NCBI GenBank assembly: GCA_019119265.1
Contig: DWXI01000148.1
Span: forward strand, 1-53,560
Source: Candidatus Mediterraneibacter intestinigallinarum
GTDB taxonomy: Bacteria; Bacillota; Clostridia; Lachnospirales; Lachnospiraceae
DNA: 53,560 nucleotides
Direction of reading: 5' to 3'
A program made the position numbers and the translations under genes. Positions 29,835 through 36,348 of the stretch are shown piece after piece (the stretch's first letter is position 1; the number at the start of each line of letters is the position of its first letter). The notes beneath the pieces are model-generated. The model was not told where the DNA came from. It saw only the letters and a program-made list of their open reading frames with translations, and made no database searches.

Positions 29835-30719
29835 CTACACTTTCTCCTGAATCTTCTTGCCTAAAAGACCCGTAGGTTTCACTAAAAGTACGACGATAAG
29901 CACTGCAAATACCAGGGCGTCTGCCATCTGAGATGTAATGTATGCCCGTCCGAAGATCTCGATGATTCCAAGAAGGAGCCCGCCGATAAATGCGCCCGGA
30001 ATCGAACCGATGCCGCCGAATACCGCTGCCACGAATGCCTTGATGCCCGGCATTGCTCCTGTATACGGCGTCACACTTGGATAAGCTGAGCAGTACAGTA
30101 CACCTGCAATCGCTGCCAGAGCTGAGCCAATGGCAAACGTCAGAGCGATCGTTCCATTTACGTTGATTCCCATAAGCTGTGCGGCGCCTTTGTCCTCAGA
30201 CACAGCGCGCATCGCCTGACCGGGTTTTGACTTCTGTACAAATGCAACAAGTACGATCATAATGACAATACAAACTCCGATCGTAACGATCGTAACACCT
30301 GAAATGCTGAGCTGTCCTCCCGCCAGCGTGATTCCGCTCCACTTGATAACTGACGGGAAAGTCTTTGCGTTAGATCCAAAGGCAAGCAGCGCGATATTCT
30401 GCAGCAGATAGCTGACGCCGATCGCGGTGATCAGGACTGACAACGATGATGTTGCGTTTCTCAATGGTTTGTATGCGATCCTCTCGATCACGACTCCAAG
30501 CAAAGTACATACTACAATCGCGATCAGCACCGCGATGACCGGAGACAATCCTGCCTGCGACATAGCGATCAACGCCATATATGCCCCGATCATGATAACA
30601 TCTCCGTGCGCAAAGTTCAGCATTTTCGCAATACCATAGACCATGGTATATCCGAGAGCGATGATCGCATAGACGCTCCCCAGACTTAATCCGTTGATTA
30701 AATACGATATAAAGCTCAT
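29835..30719 (-). CDS. livH: Branched-chain amino acid ABC transporter permease LivH
   Basis: A permease of about 294 residues and first gene of livHMGF. It shows NGLSLGSVYAIIALGYTMVY and LNFAHGDVIMIGAY near the start, the coupling loop KPGQAMRAVSEDKGAAQLMG and FVAAVFGGIGSIPGAFIGG, all typical of LivH. ATG 30719 is best spaced from GAAGGGA; in-frame ATGs at 30725 and 30740 are alternatives. No LivJ/LivK binding protein is in the window; it must be encoded elsewhere. Confidence 0.93.
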   Translation of the reverse strand: MSFISYLINGLSLGSVYAIIALGYTMVYGIAKMLNFAHGDVIMIGAYMALIAMSQAGLSPVIAVLIAIVVCTLLGVVIERIAYKPLRNATSSLSVLITAIGVSYLLQNIALLAFGSNAKTFPSVIKWSGITLAGGQLSISGVTIVTIGVCIVIMIVLVAFVQKSKPGQAMRAVSEDKGAAQLMGINVNGTIALTFAIGSALAAIAGVLYCSAYPSVTPYTGAMPGIKAFVAAVFGGIGSIPGAFIGGLLLGIIEIFGRAYITSQMADALVFAVLIVVLLVKPTGLLGKKIQEKV

Positions 30720-30763
30720 ATCCATTCCCTTCCATTCCATGCTTTACTATAATAGATCATCTG

Positions 30764-30793
30764 ATTATACCACAGGTATACGACAGTAATCAA
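30764..30793 (-). promoter_or_regulatory. Sigma-A promoter of the liv operon
   Basis: TTGATT, 18 nt, TATAAT on the minus strand, about 45 nt before the livH start. Confidence 0.75.
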
Positions 30794-30827
30794 CAAAAAA
30801 ATCGAGCACACTCGGTTTTGTAATAAC

Positions 30828-30980
30828 AGTTCAGCCATGGAGCTGGCCGGGAGAGAAAATCATGCTCGCATGATTTTTCGAGCGGACTGTTCCATGAGAT
30901 GAGCGCCTGTCAATGAGTAAAACAGCGGCGGCAGCCGCAGTAAGCACGAAGTGCGGTTTTACGAATGGCGCGGCTGAACT
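30828..30980. repeat. Structured intergenic element, family A copy 1 (153 bp, terminal inverted repeats)
   Basis: The element begins AGTTCAGCC and ends GGCTGAACT, a 9-bp terminal inverted repeat. Inside are a 10-bp hairpin (30856-30877, AAAATCATGC-tc-GCATGATTTT) and a three-way-junction core. In the core, GTAAAAC (30917-30923) pairs with GTTTTAC (30956-30962), enclosing hairpins GCGGC-ggca-GCCGC and GCAC-gaa-GTGC. Further out, GCGCC pairs with GGCGC. It is almost identical to 31961-32113 and shares its core architecture with 35063-35330. Confidence 0.8.
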
Positions 30981-31094
30981 GTGGACGCACAGAAAGCACG
31001 ATAGTGCGGCTTTGCGAATGGCGCGAGCTGAACTGTGGACGCAACGTAAGCACGAAGTGCGACTTTGCGAATGGCGCGGCTGAACTGTGGACGC
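30981..31094. repeat. Tandem partial units of the family A element
   Basis: Two further ~52-bp units repeat the last part of the element, each with an AAGCAC...GTGC hairpin followed by TTTGCGAATGGCGCG, GCTGAACTGT and GGACGCA. They diverge slightly (GATA for GAA in one loop), so they are old duplications. Only the second hairpin and right end of the element are repeated. Confidence 0.7.
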
Positions 31095-31098
31095 ACTG

Positions 31099-31150
31099 AA
31101 AAGGAGAGGCAGGAAAAGCTTACACATACATTTTCCCGTCTCTCCTTTTT
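31099..31150 (-). terminator. Terminator of the second cytidylate-kinase-like gene
   Basis: AAAAGGAGAGGCAGGAAAA pairs imperfectly with TTTTCCCGTCTCTCCTTTT, 12 nt beyond the stop at 31163. Confidence 0.7.
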
Positions 31151-31162
31151 ATTTCTCATCTG

Positions 31163-31795
31163 TCACTCGCGCGTCTCCCACTTCCGATAGATTGCTTCCA
31201 GGGCATCTACCACTCCTTCAATGCCTAGCAGGCTTGCATTGAACATCATGCTATTTGCATCAATGCCTCCCCACTCTCTTTTCGTACGCGCTTCATAATA
31301 GTTTTTCCTGTCGCGGTCTGTTTTCCTAATCTTGTCAGCCGCCTGCTTTTCATCCAGTTTATAGAGTTTCATGATCCGGCGGATCCGATCCTCTTTATAT
31401 GCATATATAAACGTATTAATGCAATTCGTATAATCCCCGAGCACATAGTCGGCGCATCTTCCTACAAAGATCCCCGGCCCCTCCTCTGCCAGCTTGCGTA
31501 TGATAGCCGACTGTCTTTCAAACACCCGGTCTGTCAGCGTCTTCCCTGACTCGTCACTGTTCATGAATACGCGGTATTCAAGACTGCTTGATGCATAGGC
31601 TGACAGAAATCTTCCAAGAATCGTCTCATCCACCTTTGTCGCATCTTCATTGCTGATGCGCAGCTCCTGTGCCGCCATGCGGATCAGATTATGATCATAC
31701 AGCGGAATGTCGAGTCTCTCCGCCAGTTTGTTTCCGATCTCGTGTCCGCCGCTTCCAAACTGTCTGCCGATCGTGATGATCGTATGCTGCATCAT
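31163..31795 (-). CDS. Cytidylate-kinase-like P-loop protein (copy 2)
   Basis: A 210-residue paralogue of the protein at 26632-27255. It has ITIGRQFGSGGHEIGNKLAE, LYDHNLIRMAAQE, the shared FVGRCADYVLGDY and a basic lid region (KTDRDRKNYYEARTKREWGG). The acceptor is unknown. The start at 31795 (ATG ATG) follows AAGGAG at good spacing; a GTG at 31804 is too close. It is a single gene between two copies of the family A element. Confidence 0.85.
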   Translation of the reverse strand: MMQHTIITIGRQFGSGGHEIGNKLAERLDIPLYDHNLIRMAAQELRISNEDATKVDETILGRFLSAYASSSLEYRVFMNSDESGKTLTDRVFERQSAIIRKLAEEGPGIFVGRCADYVLGDYTNCINTFIYAYKEDRIRRIMKLYKLDEKQAADKIRKTDRDRKNYYEARTKREWGGIDANSMMFNASLLGIEGVVDALEAIYRKWETRE

Positions 31796-31896
31796 ATCCG
31801 TCACTCCTTCCTGTGAAACACTACATGAGCGCTGTATTTATCGTACCGGGAATCCGCAGCCGCTGCCCGAGCCCCCGGACTTTTATTCACAGTTAG

Positions 31897-31924
31897 ATTA
31901 TATCATCATTATGCACAAATTGAA
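31897..31924 (-). promoter_or_regulatory. Candidate promoter of the second kinase-like gene
   Basis: TATAAT (31902-31897) on the minus strand with a weak TTCAAT 16 nt upstream. The leader of about 95 nt includes a GC-rich CCGGG/CCCGG hairpin at about 31838-31878. Confidence 0.45.
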
Positions 31925-31960
31925 CAGCATTTTGAGGATATTTTTGTAAATTTTTGTGAT

Positions 31961-32113
31961 AGTTCAGTCATGGAGCTGACCAGGAGAGAAAATCATGCTC
32001 GCATGATTTTTCGAGTAGGCTGTTCCATGAGCTGAGCGCCTGTCAATAAGTAAAACAGCGGCGGCAGCCGCAATAAGCACGAAGTGCGGTTTTACGAATG
32101 GCGCGGCTGAACT
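31961..32113. repeat. Structured intergenic element, family A copy 2 (153 bp)
   Basis: It has the same length as copy 1, begins AGTTCAGTC and ends GGCTGAACT. The hairpin AAAATCATGC-tc-GCATGATTTT and the three-way-junction core (GTAAAAC 32050-32056 with GTTTTAC 32089-32095) are conserved. Changes fall mostly in unpaired or weakly paired positions. TCATGGA pairs with TCCATGA around the first hairpin. It ends two bases before the stop codon of the Bce-type permease. Confidence 0.8.
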
Positions 32114-32114
32114 A

Positions 32115-34190
32115 TTATAGACTTTTCTCTTTTCCGCTGACAATTGTATAGTATCCTTTCGACGTGATGATATAAACGATCACGTAGAAAAGAGCAAATA
32201 CAAGGTAGCAGCATACTGTCACGATAATGAGCAGGCTCTCTTCGGCTGCCCATATCAGGAGCAGTATCTTGGAGATCAGCGGGAATGCAAACGTCAGGTG
32301 GATTCCCGCCATGACAAGCGGCAGGAAGAACACGGTCAGCACCTGCGAGTTAATGCTCTGCTTTACTTCCTTCCGGGTCATGCCTACTTTCATTAGGATA
32401 TCAAAACGATCCTGATCTTCATATCCTTCCGAGATCTGTTTGTAATACATGATGAGTACCGTTCCGAAGAGAAATACTGCCCCCAGCATCACGCCCAGGA
32501 AGAAAAGCCCGCCGTTAATAGCTATGGTATCCGCTCTTCCGCCCGCCTTGGAATCGATATAATAGTGGGGATAATCCACGGTCGTCTGTGCTCCGTCCGT
32601 TTCCTCTCCATCCGAAGCGGTCAGCGCTCCGATTCGTTCCAGGATTGTATTATAGATATCGATCTGTTTCTCATCTCCACACGTCAGGTCAAATCCATAG
32701 TTCTCTTCTATATAGGCAACCGCTATACTCTCGTCTTCCTTTGCAAGCGAATTTCTGTACTCCTCAATCTGACGGATCACAGACATATCTTTCGCGACAA
32801 TAAAGTACGCTCCCATTACATTTGCCTGTGCAGTTCCCACAGGAAACGGCTGCTTATCCAGAAGCTTTACATCCCACGAACCGCAGCCTGTGATCGACAG
32901 TGTATCATAATCATAATCTGCTTTGAATGGATAGAGCAGAAGTTCGCCGTCTGAGAGCTCCGCGCTTTCTCCGGATAGTCGGTTGTAATCTTCCAGGCTG
33001 ATCATATAGATACTCCGGATAGATTCCACGTCGCCCGTTCCTGTTCCAGCAGTTCCTCCTGCACTCAGTGTGAACTCATCCCGCAGCTGGAATCCCGCCA
33101 TACTGTAGATATGAAAATCCTCAATATTCTCCGAATTTTCACCGTATTCTGCCAGCACTTCATCTACGATCGCCTTGTACGGCTCTGTCTCGCTGTAGTC
33201 GTCAGATCTGAGTTCCATCGTAATATCATGGGGATATCTCTTCTGTATGCCGTCCTCCGTCTGGGCGTAAAGGCACACTGTGGACGACAGCGTGACCAAT
33301 ACCATAGTAGACAGGATACAGATCGATGCAAGCCCCGCGCCGTTACGTTTCATCCGGTAGACCATAGATGAAAGGGAAACAAAATGTTTTGTTCTATAGT
33401 AATATTTCTTATTCTTCTGGAGCAGTTTGCACAGCGCTACAGATCCCGAGATAAAAAGCAAATACGTAGCGATGATCACCATGACAACCGCGACAAAGAA
33501 CATGAGCATCGCCGACAGGGGATCGATGACCGCCACTGCCAGATAATACGCCCCGGCCAGCAGCGCCGTTCCTATGATCGCCAGAATCCAGTTTGCCTTC
33601 GGCGGTTTCTCGCCTACATTCTCACTCTTCAGCATTTCTACCGGGCGCAGCCGGAAGATGTAGAAGATCATCCGCAGCATGATGAGGAGAAAAATACCCA
33701 GAAAAAGAACTGTTGTTACTATGATCGGCTGCGGCTCTACCCTGATCGCAAATCCTGTCTGCCCGCCAAGGATACGGATCGCGGCAAGCTCCGCCAGCTT
33801 GGAAAAAAGAATGCCCAGAAGAAGGCCCGCCGCAATGGAGAGCACCGCTGTCAGCACATTCTCCCACACGAGGATTTTGACCAGATTGTGTTTTCCCATC
33901 CCGAGGATGTTGTAAAGTCCGAATTCTTTCTGCCTTCTGCGGATCAGAAATGAATTCGTATAATACAGAAAAATCAGGGAGAAGATCGCTATGACAAACA
34001 CCCCCAGGCTGAGGAAGGACTGGAGCATATCTCCTCCCCGCACCGACGTAAAGTCAGCAGAAAACCCAAGATAGTAAATAATGTAGAACATCATGATCAT
34101 GCAGATGCAGGTGAGGATATACGGAAAGTATAGTTTCCTGTTCTTCACGATCCCGTCTTTTGCCAGTCTGATATAAAATCCGCCCTTCAT
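32115..34190 (-). CDS. BceB-type ABC transporter permease (FtsX family)
   Basis: A 691-residue permease of the peptide-antibiotic sensing and resistance type. An N-terminal helix is followed by an FtsX core, including RRRQKEFGLYNILGMGKHNL, the conserved cytoplasmic segment. A large extracellular domain (about residues 310-570) sits between helices and would bind the antimicrobial peptide, and a C-terminal helix bundle follows. It is translationally coupled to its ATPase (ATGA at 34187-34190). With the adjacent kinase and regulator it should form a flux-sensing module. The peptide recognised is unknown. Confidence 0.92.
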   Translation of the reverse strand: MKGGFYIRLAKDGIVKNRKLYFPYILTCICMIMMFYIIYYLGFSADFTSVRGGDMLQSFLSLGVFVIAIFSLIFLYYTNSFLIRRRQKEFGLYNILGMGKHNLVKILVWENVLTAVLSIAAGLLLGILFSKLAELAAIRILGGQTGFAIRVEPQPIIVTTVLFLGIFLLIMLRMIFYIFRLRPVEMLKSENVGEKPPKANWILAIIGTALLAGAYYLAVAVIDPLSAMLMFFVAVVMVIIATYLLFISGSVALCKLLQKNKKYYYRTKHFVSLSSMVYRMKRNGAGLASICILSTMVLVTLSSTVCLYAQTEDGIQKRYPHDITMELRSDDYSETEPYKAIVDEVLAEYGENSENIEDFHIYSMAGFQLRDEFTLSAGGTAGTGTGDVESIRSIYMISLEDYNRLSGESAELSDGELLLYPFKADYDYDTLSITGCGSWDVKLLDKQPFPVGTAQANVMGAYFIVAKDMSVIRQIEEYRNSLAKEDESIAVAYIEENYGFDLTCGDEKQIDIYNTILERIGALTASDGEETDGAQTTVDYPHYYIDSKAGGRADTIAINGGLFFLGVMLGAVFLFGTVLIMYYKQISEGYEDQDRFDILMKVGMTRKEVKQSINSQVLTVFFLPLVMAGIHLTFAFPLISKILLLIWAAEESLLIIVTVCCYLVFALFYVIVYIITSKGYYTIVSGKEKSL

Positions 34191-34951
34191 CGTCTGTCAC
34201 CACCTGTCGCCAATATCGTGAGTGTGTCAGATATCTTCTGATAGAGCTGCTCATCCGACATATTTCCTCTGTAGACCTGATGGTATACTTCCCCGTCACG
34301 GATAAAGAGTACCCGGCCCGCTTTGCTCGCAGCTTTGACCGAATGAGTCACCATAAGGATCGTCTGTCCTTTCTGGTTGATCTTTGCAAAGAGTGCCAGA
34401 AGTTCATCCGTTGATCGGGAATCAAGGGCCCCTGTAGGCTCATCGGCAAGAATGATCCGCGGATCTGTGATCAGCGCCCTTGCAGCCGCCACTCTCTGTT
34501 TCTGCCCTCCGGAAATCTCATAAGGATATTTTTCCAGCAAAGGTGCGATCCCCAGTTCTTTGGCTATCGGCATAAGTTTCTTCGTCATCTCCTTGTATGT
34601 CTCGCCTTTGAGTACAAGCGGCAGGAGAATGTTATCCTTTACATTAAATGTATCGAGGAGATTAAATTCCTGAAACACAAATCCCAGATTGTCCCGCCTG
34701 AACTCCGAGATATTCTTATCTTTTATCCCCGAGAGCGGCTTCCCGTCCAGATAAACTTCACCTTCTGTCGGCTTATCCAGCGCCGCAAGCATGTTCAGGA
34801 GCGTTGTCTTACCGCTTCCGCTCTCGCCCATGATCGCCACATACTCTCCCTCCTCCACGGAAAAATTTACACATGAGAGCGCCTGCACCTGAGTCCCGCC
34901 AAACCGGGTACGGTATATTTTCTTCAAGTTTTTTACTTCCAAAACAGTCAT
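34187..34951 (-). CDS. BceA-type ABC transporter ATP-binding protein
   Basis: A 254-residue ATPase of the LolD/BceA group: IMGESGSGKTTLLNMLAALD (Walker A), FQEFNLLDTFNVKDNILLPL (Q-loop region), SGGQKQRVAAARAL, Walker B IILADEPTGALD and the switch His in MVTHSVKAA. It powers the BceB-like permease encoded next. Start MTVLEV at 34951 follows AAGGAGGT; an ATG at 34969 lies before that site. A regulator-dependent promoter lies upstream. Confidence 0.93.
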   Translation of the reverse strand: MTVLEVKNLKKIYRTRFGGTQVQALSCVNFSVEEGEYVAIMGESGSGKTTLLNMLAALDKPTEGEVYLDGKPLSGIKDKNISEFRRDNLGFVFQEFNLLDTFNVKDNILLPLVLKGETYKEMTKKLMPIAKELGIAPLLEKYPYEISGGQKQRVAAARALITDPRIILADEPTGALDSRSTDELLALFAKINQKGQTILMVTHSVKAASKAGRVLFIRDGEVYHQVYRGNMSDEQLYQKISDTLTILATGGDRR

Positions 34952-34982
34952 GAAACTGACCTCCTTCATGTTTTCTGGACTC

Positions 34983-35059
34983 AGTATATCAAAACCGGTC
35001 GGAATGCCGACATCGAATCCTGTGACATTCCGACCGGTCCATGTGACACTATTGTCACA
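34983..35059 (-). promoter_or_regulatory. Regulated promoter of the Bce-type transporter, with BceR-like operator
   Basis: A -10 box TATACT (34988-34983) has no good -35, as expected for an activator-dependent promoter. Upstream are two inverted repeats. One is ACCGGTCGGAATG with CATTCCGACCGGT (34994-35006 and 35026-35038). The other is the perfect TGTGACA-ctat-TGTCACA (35042-35059), which fits the TGACA-N4-TGTCA pattern bound by BceR-type regulators. The regulator gene is upstream on the same strand. Confidence 0.7.
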
Positions 35060-35062
35060 CCC

Positions 35063-35330
35063 AGCTCACGCATACAGGAGAAGCGTCAGCTCTGTGCTCG
35101 CACAGGGAGCTGACGCTTCTCCTGTATGCAGGGAGCGCCGCATGATGAGCAAAACAGCCGCGTATGCGGCAATTAGTACCGCAGGTACGGTTTTGCGATT
35201 TCACAGGCGGCGCGGGTGAGCGGACCTTTCCGCATGCAGGGAGCGCCGCATGATGAGCAAAACAGCCGCGTATGCGGCAGTTAGTACCGCAGGTACGGTT
35301 TTGCGATTCCGCAGGCGGTGCGGGTGAGCG
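35063..35330. repeat. Structured intergenic element, family A' (long hairpin plus two three-way-junction cores)
   Basis: CTCACGC near 35065 is inverted relative to GCGGGTGAG near 35212-35220. A 22-bp perfect stem (35070-35091 with 35108-35129) plus 5 bp forms a long hairpin. Core 1 has GCAAAAC (35149-35155) pairing with GTTTTGC (35190-35196) around GCCGC-gtat-GCGGC and GTACC-gca-GGTAC. Core 2 repeats this at 35257-35304. Linkers (1, 5 and 1 nt) match family A exactly while the paired bases differ. Confidence 0.8.
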
Positions 35331-35355
35331 GACGGCCTCTGGACAAGAGCGCCGC

Positions 35356-36348
35356 CTACTCCGCCTGCAGTGAATACGTCTCCAGATCGACGATAAACCT
35401 GCTGCCCTTTCCCGGTTCCGACTGCGCCAGCAGCCTGTGCCCGAGCTTATCCGCTGCAGTCCTGCACAGATACAGTCCGATCCCGGTAGACTTCTTGTCC
35501 AGACGCCCGTTATACCCGGTATAGCCCTTCTCAAAGATCCGCGGAAGGTCTTCCGGTGAAATACCGATTCCTGTATCCGTGATGGAAAGCTGTTTCTTAT
35601 CATCCACTGATATCGTGACATTTCCTCCTTCCGGAGTATATTTCACCGCATTGGACAGGAGCTGTTCAATGATAAAGGATAGCCATTTCTCGTCTGTCAC
35701 CACGCGTTCGTCCGTACCAGCGTATACAAGCCGTATCTTCCTGCGGATAAACTGTCCGGCATACTTCCGCACTGCCTTCCGGATGATATCGTCCAGCTCA
35801 TACTCCTGAATGACCAGATCGGAAGCCCCCTCGCCGAGTCGAATGTAGTAAAGCGCCATCTCGGCATACTGCTCAATGCGGAATAATTCTGCCGACAGCT
35901 CTCTGTTCTCCTGGGTATCCTCCTGCTGGAGCATGACACGCATAACAGCGATCGGCGCCTTGATCTGGTGTACCCACACGGCATAATAATCATTCATATC
36001 GTTCCTGGCACTGTCCCACTCTTCTTTTCTCGCGCGGTTCGCCTCCTCTTCCCGGAGCACAAGCGCCTGATAGTCGCTCTCCGTCAGGCTGTCCGCCCGG
36101 GGAAGATACTCTGCACACGGCGCAGCCCCGGGCTGCAGCCGTTCAAGCTCCATATGCTTCCGTCTGTATCTTAAAAATCCCAGCATCAGAAAAACCAGAC
36201 CGGACAATGCAGATAAAAGAAGCGGGTACCACACCGCCTCCATCCGGATCCCGTACAGGGCAAATACACCTGCAAATATTGCTCCGCTTATCATCACCCA
36301 CAGCCACACATACCGGCAGTCATAGAGATATCTGAAAAAGCGCTTCAT
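35356..36348 (-). CDS. BceS-type intramembrane-sensing histidine kinase
   Basis: A 330-residue sensor kinase with two N-terminal membrane helices (about residues 12-60) and almost no extracellular loop. Such kinases sense through the partner transporter. The dimerisation/phosphoacceptor helix contains WVHQIKAPIAVMR (His about residue 125), the N-box is EQLLSNAVKYT, and the G-boxes are DTGIGI and STGIGLYL. Start MKRFFRY at 36348 follows AGGGGAG. It lies 4 nt behind its response regulator. Confidence 0.92.
   Translation of the reverse strand: MKRFFRYLYDCRYVWLWVMISGAIFAGVFALYGIRMEAVWYPLLLSALSGLVFLMLGFLRYRRKHMELERLQPGAAPCAEYLPRADSLTESDYQALVLREEEANRARKEEWDSARNDMNDYYAVWVHQIKAPIAVMRVMLQQEDTQENRELSAELFRIEQYAEMALYYIRLGEGASDLVIQEYELDDIIRKAVRKYAGQFIRRKIRLVYAGTDERVVTDEKWLSFIIEQLLSNAVKYTPEGGNVTISVDDKKQLSITDTGIGISPEDLPRIFEKGYTGYNGRLDKKSTGIGLYLCRTAADKLGHRLLAQSEPGKGSRFIVDLETYSLQAE

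Follow-up and report, generated by a model that had tools for sequence, protein, structure and literature searches.

A dispersed repeat of Lachnospiraceae with the marks of a mobile element and a conserved folded interior

Clostridiales-1 RNA (RF01699) is filed in Rfam as an sRNA and was rated as probably an RNA, and probably not cis-regulatory, by Weinberg 2010 (PMC2864571). The bcr1 and related repeats of Bacillus cereus are presented as MITE-like and intergenic, some of them with conserved secondary structure (PMC3446304), and a review describes MITE transcripts with stable stem-loops (PMC10969869). Two IS66 elements with 8-bp repeats are also in print (PMC3281130). Neither RF01699 nor the element reported here is described as a transposon in the titles or opening abstract lines of the open-licence matches listed in our literature search.

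We analysed a stretch of 53,560 nucleotides from Candidatus Mediterraneibacter intestinigallinarum, referred to as the window. The original prediction for this DNA had been a dispersed intergenic element with terminal inverted repeats, a variable hairpin on the left and pairing kept on a folded strand, and that description is upheld by the data below. What is new is that the repeat is a transposable element, with terminal ends and a target duplication.

The window copies and the distribution of the repeat

Four cores had been placed at 30917-30962, 32050-32095, 35149-35196 and 35257-35304. Each of them is matched by a covariance model, R1, which was built from alignment A2, comprising 28 full copies found in this genome, and to which alignments A3-A5 were fitted; the matches cover 30901-30971, 32034-32104, 35133-35213 and 35241-35312, with E-values, which are rough, from 6.6e-23 to 2.2e-10. 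The helices and loops described for these cores were reproduced by both RNA and DNA folding. When the whole stretch of the last copy (35234-35330) was compared with its shuffles, the RNA fold barely exceeded them (z -1.32, 19/200 as good) and the DNA fold gave a z of -2.69 (1/200 as good); the core helices were present in both folds alike. The element unit exceeds the core, since it spans approximately 165 nt with ends GTAAC...GTTAC and also takes in an ATGAG/CGAAT module, in which two G.A pairs face each other, and an outer helix, GCGCC/GGCGC. Its parts follow in the order GTAACAGTTCAGCC, long hairpin, GAGCGCC, ATGAG, 7-bp helix round two small hairpins, CGAAT, GGCGC and GGCTGAACTGTTAC. The window copies are composed of the following features:

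30823..30836, + strand: left terminal repeat of element 1, ATAACAGTTCAGCC, 13/14 of GTAACAGTTCAGCC
30837..30900, + strand: long hairpin of element 1, tip G-CTCG-C, in RNA and DNA folds
30901..30971, + strand: core of element 1, with GCGCC/GGCGC helix, ATGAG/CGAAT module, 7-bp helix and two hairpins; R1 99.6 bits
30972..30985, + strand: right terminal repeat of element 1, decayed, 11/14
30986..31091, + strand: two further partial 3' units of element 1; repeat families D2, D4 and D5, weak R1 matches at 30973-31017 and 31025-31070
31026-31039 and 31078-31091, + strand: right terminal repeats closing these two partial 3' units
31956..31969, + strand: left terminal repeat of element 2, 11/14
31970..32033, + strand: long hairpin of element 2, tip G-CTCG-C, in RNA and DNA folds
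32034..32104, + strand: core of element 2; R1 97.3 bits
32105..32118, + strand: right terminal repeat of element 2, 12/14
35063..35069, + strand: putative left end of element 3 (diverged), AGCTCAC, read by eye as a changed AGTTCAG
35070..35129, + strand: long hairpin of element 3, 23-bp perfect arms, tip G-CTCG-C; inverted repeat I1
35133..35213, + strand: first core of element 3; R1 50.4 bits
35216..35221, + strand: putative right end of element 3 after the first core, GTGAGC, complementary to the left end as read by eye
35241..35312, + strand: second core of element 3 (tandem unit); R1 51.0 bits, direct repeat D3

With its two extra partial 3' units element 1 reaches 31091, and the 35-kb copies are a diverged tandem pair. 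The right terminal repeat of element 2 (32105-32118) overlaps the stop codon of a minus-strand reading frame at 32115-34190. Since no clear target duplication was seen at the window copies, they are presumably old.

In the 3.11-Mb assembly of this genome, R1 gave 46 matches at E<=0.1 and 43 at E<1e-6. The diverged pair at 35.1-35.3 kb, which had been left out of the model, was recovered at E about 2e-10, and its detection is independent for that reason. Matches were obtained in 47/58 genomes of the same genus, with 0 to 55 per genome, and in 42/348 genomes of the family Lachnospiraceae, spread over 39/333 genera, where copy numbers are at least those counted among the best 14 candidates scored per genome. 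A class-wide search returned 3/391 genomes, two within the family and one outside it with a weak match (E 4e-5); searches over more than 40 genomes were run with stricter filters. The exact core pattern occurred in 48 stretches among named genomes, titled Mediterraneibacter, Lachnoclostridium, Ruminococcus and others, and in none of the viral contigs searched. Moreover, the end pattern AACAGTTCAGCC, with one mismatch allowed, was found 46 + 62 times in this genome as compared with 1 + 4 times for a reversed control. The covariance search of this genome and other Lachnospiraceae, proposed with the original prediction, has returned many copies with covarying pairs, and not the window copies alone.

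For the counts of duplications, orientation, long stems, loops and age, copies were picked by motif from retrieved loci; degenerate copies are missing from these counts for that reason, and the counts are not independent because the copies are related. The set comprised 112 copies (108 distinct), and 102 had genes, called as simple reading frames, on both sides. Among these 102, 29 lay between divergent genes as opposed to 9 between convergent genes, and 62 were opposite to the local majority gene strand as opposed to 40 along it (p 0.04). Between co-directional genes both orientations occurred (27 and 37), without sense-strand bias.

Several loci depart from the single unit. Core units stand in tandem, two or three in a row, at L154, L156, L158, L185 and L186 and at L198, L199, L201 and L203; within any one genome these units share their loops and paired changes, which are different in other genomes, a pattern resembling concerted evolution. 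One copy has a long G+C-rich insertion in its junction (L297, genome G231) and another a long insert between core and hairpin (L143, genome G000). Two further loci (L301 in G192 and L298 in G365) carry the same core between other ends, GTAAAAAGTTTTTA and GTAACAGTTCACTC respectively, which suggests that the ends change while the interior stays.

Terminal ends, target duplications and a candidate transposase

Copies of the repeat are flanked by short direct duplications. Specifically, a perfect 8-bp repeat lies outside GTAAC...GTTAC in 17/112 full copies from this genome and its genus, where re-paired flanks give an expectation of 0.06. The 8-bp flanks of 4 more copies differ at one position (0.16 with re-paired flanks), and no comparable excess was found at any other offset or length in the 112 copies. 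In other genera, ends of the same or a similar kind are bordered by a perfect 8-bp repeat in 6/28 loci, and among 10 further copies retrieved from two genomes the repeat was present in 4 of the 7 with ends found (by script, in 2/5 G341 and 5/5 G288 stretches). Shortened copies retain both ends and have lost parts of the interior, such that what remains between the ends is the long hairpin by itself, hairpin 2 by itself or next to nothing. The repeats are short (approximately 165 nt, too short for a transposase), dispersed and transposase-free, they have 14-bp terminal inverted repeats and 8-bp target-site duplications, and an autonomous element with the same ends exists in genome G047 (L238), the end also standing beside a transposase piece in genome G359. 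These are the features of a MITE, and the repeats appear to be a family of approximately 165-base non-autonomous transposable elements of Lachnospiraceae, whose mobility is well supported by their ends and flanks.

An IS66-type transposase that recognises the 14-bp ends is the most likely enzyme to move them, as suggested by the shared ends and by the length of the duplication, 8 bp, which is that of an IS66 derivative. G047, the genome with most copies (55), carries a 1,820-bp IS66-family element (L238) with an open transposase frame, the ends GTAACAGTTCAGCCTTCCGG / GTAACAGTTCACCCTTCCGA and the 8-bp duplication CGAAAAAA. Its protein matches PF03050 (IS66-family transposase) at 75.5 bits; against the NCBIfam IS66 model it scores 145.6 bits, below the cut-off of 180. 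In G359, which belongs to another genus, the same 14-bp end lies no more than 50 bp from a transposase piece that is 71% identical, and in G161 a more distant relative (32% identical) has the ends GTTACTGTTCACAC and an 8-bp duplication. Within locus L238 (100-148), the IS66-family element directly adjoins the right end of a MITE copy. PF03050 was matched at E<=1e-10 in 18/58 same-genus genomes. The remaining 40/58, among them this genome and several copy-rich ones, gave no match at that threshold, which counts against IS66; in such genomes the source may have been lost, or another enzyme may act. Two candidates in this genome for an autonomous transposon between distant inverted repeats (C219, 5.3 kb; C18, 1.8 kb) were rejected, as by eye they hold housekeeping genes and no transposase.

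The folded interior and the nature of the kept molecule

The paired changes first noticed between versions of the core recur across copies. In the 28 copies of this genome 7/23 core pairs have changed on both sides, and in 46 sequences, including 27 loci of other genera and aligned by fitting to R1, 17/23 pairs have done so in 107 cells. None of 500 shuffles reached either count, and slid controls gave at most 5 pairs in the 46-sequence alignment. The tandem G.A module is likewise retained in the core alignment. Identity among the long hairpins is only 43% over the initial 20 nt of an arm; even so, 12.1/18 positions of an arm are paired with its own partner, as compared with 8.1 for the partner of another copy. 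These data show that the interior is kept as a fold of one strand. Helices were equally intact in 21 copies whose duplication has one mismatch or none and in 78 copies that lack a duplication (at least three mismatches), in a set whose picking by motif favours intact copies: the 7-bp helix was Watson-Crick at 98.6% versus 96.7%, and the long hairpin had -0.492 versus -0.494 kcal/mol per nt.

Resident copies could be followed at the junction between rpoD and trmK (genes named by eye), which was read in 30 of 56 genomes with the locus, the rpoD end being found in 29. A full copy is present in 10/29 genomes, with its TAA as the rpoD stop codon, and G030 has a truncated copy. The element end at loci L194-L204 supplies the rpoD stop codon in 10 genomes. 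No clean empty site was found at this junction, the element-free spacers being too different for the junction to be placed by eye. Among six orthologous copies, 5/23 long-hairpin pairs have changed on both sides, and one T-G and one A-C were seen; resident copies therefore retain their pairing as well, whether through selection or through correction of one arm to the other. In the long hairpin, the bulge AAAGG/CAACT has stayed unpaired and uncorrected across the six orthologues, save for one altered pair position.

Loops and mismatches bear on whether the kept molecule is DNA or RNA. c-GNA-g is a stable DNA minihairpin, and c-GNRA-g and g-CUUG-c loops are stable in RNA too. A 2002 paper by Nakano et al. 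(via PMC8373063) names c-GNNA-g, c-GNAB-g, c-CNNG-g and g-CNNG-c in its title as stable DNA tetraloops, and for the STAXI motif Weinberg et al. 2010 leaned to RNA, UUCG loops being stabilising in RNA and not in DNA (PMC2864571). In our set, the five loop classes account for 297/321 short loops in the genus, 46/68 in other genera and 44/67 in RF01699 copies, compared with 30/675 in random genomic windows; the counting script recovered 22/28 loci of other genera and 23/30 RF01699 loci. UNCG loops numbered 0 in the genus, 0 in other genera, 0 in RF01699 copies and 6 in random windows. GNYA exceeds GNRA by 80 to 15 in the genus (76 to 23 by the alignments); outside it the loops are few: other genera gave 5 GNYA to 1 GNRA, and RF01699 copies gave one of each. 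G-U pairs make up 29/2576 standard core cells (1.1%) as opposed to 38/485 (7.8%) in 22 tRNAs from retrieved loci (p about 1e-14), and A.C was counted 19 times in core cells and 0 times in the tRNAs. Intrinsic terminators had been considered as the RNA control; the 23 found were too few (8 of the G-U type, 3 A-C), and tRNAs were used instead. Since G-U is scarce and most of the loops are of stable DNA types, we favour single-stranded DNA over RNA as the molecule under selection. In the long stems G.T exceeds A.C by 31 to 8. RNA would give this too: the excess marks one strand, and it fits RNA or single-stranded DNA and not a two-strand cruciform.

The account to which we lean, with slightly better than even confidence, is that of a MITE with an IS66-type transposase as its probable mover and with an interior kept as a one-strand fold, more likely of DNA, that favours transposition or persistence. 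The element moves as DNA and leaves the 8-bp target duplication seen in its flanks, and an IS66-type transposase would most likely act on the 14-bp ends. The kept fold, as covariation shows, consists of a stem formed by both ends, a long hairpin that is free in sequence but tipped G-CNNG-C, the tandem G.A module and a three-way junction carrying two hairpins. Whenever the strand becomes single during replication or repair, this fold might join both ends and thereby favour transposition or persistence, which is the weakest step of the proposal. A MITE of the same kind could instead be kept for an RNA, a structured top-strand transcript as has been assumed for RF01699; we judge this unlikely, though still the strongest competitor. 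The strong covariation, the one-strand mark in the long stems, the placing of RF01699 among RNAs by Rfam and by the 2010 rating, and the stem-loop transcripts known from other MITEs all speak for a transcript, whereas the shortage of G-U with its accompanying A.C, the preference for GNYA, the absence of UNCG and the lack of sense bias among the copies speak against it.

Pairing might also be restored by arm-to-arm correction, through template switching or mismatch repair in an extruded hairpin, as a mutational process without selection on function. This would suit the compensatory changes in resident copies with few intermediates, the long-hairpin arms that vary freely yet stay paired, and the likeness of tandem units within a genome. 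We nevertheless regard it as improbable, as the bulge has escaped correction in the rpoD-site orthologues but for the one position, the tandem G.A module stays in the core, and the loops keep their G and A ends while the middle varies, which correction of arms does not explain. Least credible of all, and to our minds very nearly dismissed, is an element of the REP/RAYT or IS200/IS605 type, moved as single-stranded DNA by a Y1 transposase, to which the original prediction had pointed as a lead. Hairpins and a fold of one strand would agree with it, but terminal repeats with a target duplication point to a transposon of the DDE type and are not known as features of RAYT or IS200/IS605 elements; to our knowledge Y1 elements make no target duplications, and here the same ends are found on an IS66-family element. 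That lead is accordingly unsupported. Under the IS66-moved MITE that we prefer, this is a transposon with an inner structure, besides its ends, that is open to tests of a role in movement. Compensatory evolution is usually taken as proof of a functional RNA, and here it occurs in something with DNA-like loops and scarce G-U. If the DNA reading is true, covariation alone is no proof of RNA, and loop type and the share of G-U would help to separate DNA from RNA.

Clostridiales-1 RNA and other known systems

The original prediction had found no described family that fits. For the window copies this stands: RF01699 gave no match to them at E<=1, Rfam gave none in the window at gathering score, and at E<=1 the only match within 30700-35400 was one with a plant microRNA family, whose score of 25.9 bits lies below the threshold of 76. 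It is qualified by copies from three other genera (3/5 loci scanned), to which RF01699 aligns at full length and on the same strand with 38.0, 35.6 and 30.3 bits, the best being below its gathering score of 48 bits. RF01699 itself is found in 195/348 family genomes at E<=0.01, 153 of them over threshold, and 5 times in this genome; at most 7 candidates per genome were scored in this survey, so that copy numbers are at least those counted. No symmetric repeats were seen at the Rfam model ends of 30 RF01699 copies. The copies run past the right end of the model to ...ACATC, and the true right end emerged when several copies within single genomes were compared. Both ends were found in 24 of 40 RF01699 loci (L302-L341), and identical 7-bp flanks were present in 12/24 (11/23 places, L305 and L338 being one place) compared with 0.9 expected. 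Because of these 7-bp target duplications, RF01699 also bears the marks of a MITE. Its relation to our element is suggested by alignments below threshold and by shared motifs, and the likeness could be convergence.

More broadly, and tentatively, there may be a class of transposable elements that carry a single-stranded DNA fold as cargo, kept in resident copies and distributed through Lachnospiraceae by transposons of at least two kinds (one making 8-bp and another 7-bp duplications, with unlike ends), with Clostridiales-1 RNA as one branch, a mobile DNA and no RNA gene. We hold this possibility with less than even confidence. The findings on RF01699 copies give grounds for moving this Rfam sRNA family to mobile DNA.

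Among known systems, the bcr1 repeats of Bacillus cereus resemble the element by their published description. REP sequences carry their structure on one strand and, with the RAYT transposases, share with it the dispersed hairpins; the element differs in having true terminal repeats and a target duplication. IS66-family insertion sequences, as represented by L238, have the same 14-bp end GTAACAGTTCAGCC, the 8-bp duplication and a PF03050 transposase, while L238 is unlike the MITE in its length of 1,820 bp, its transposase frame and its lack of the MITE interior. RF01699 is like the element in its outer stem, its long hairpin tipped UGCUUGCA, its AUGAG...CGAAU module, its dispersal and its target duplications, and unlike it in that its junction has a single hairpin and a further hairpin lies on the right. 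Its ends are GAT[AG]CC... with 7-bp duplications, whereas the element has GTAACAGTTCAGCC with 8 bp; given these differences in ends and duplication length, it seems that related folds are found in mobile elements of two different kinds.
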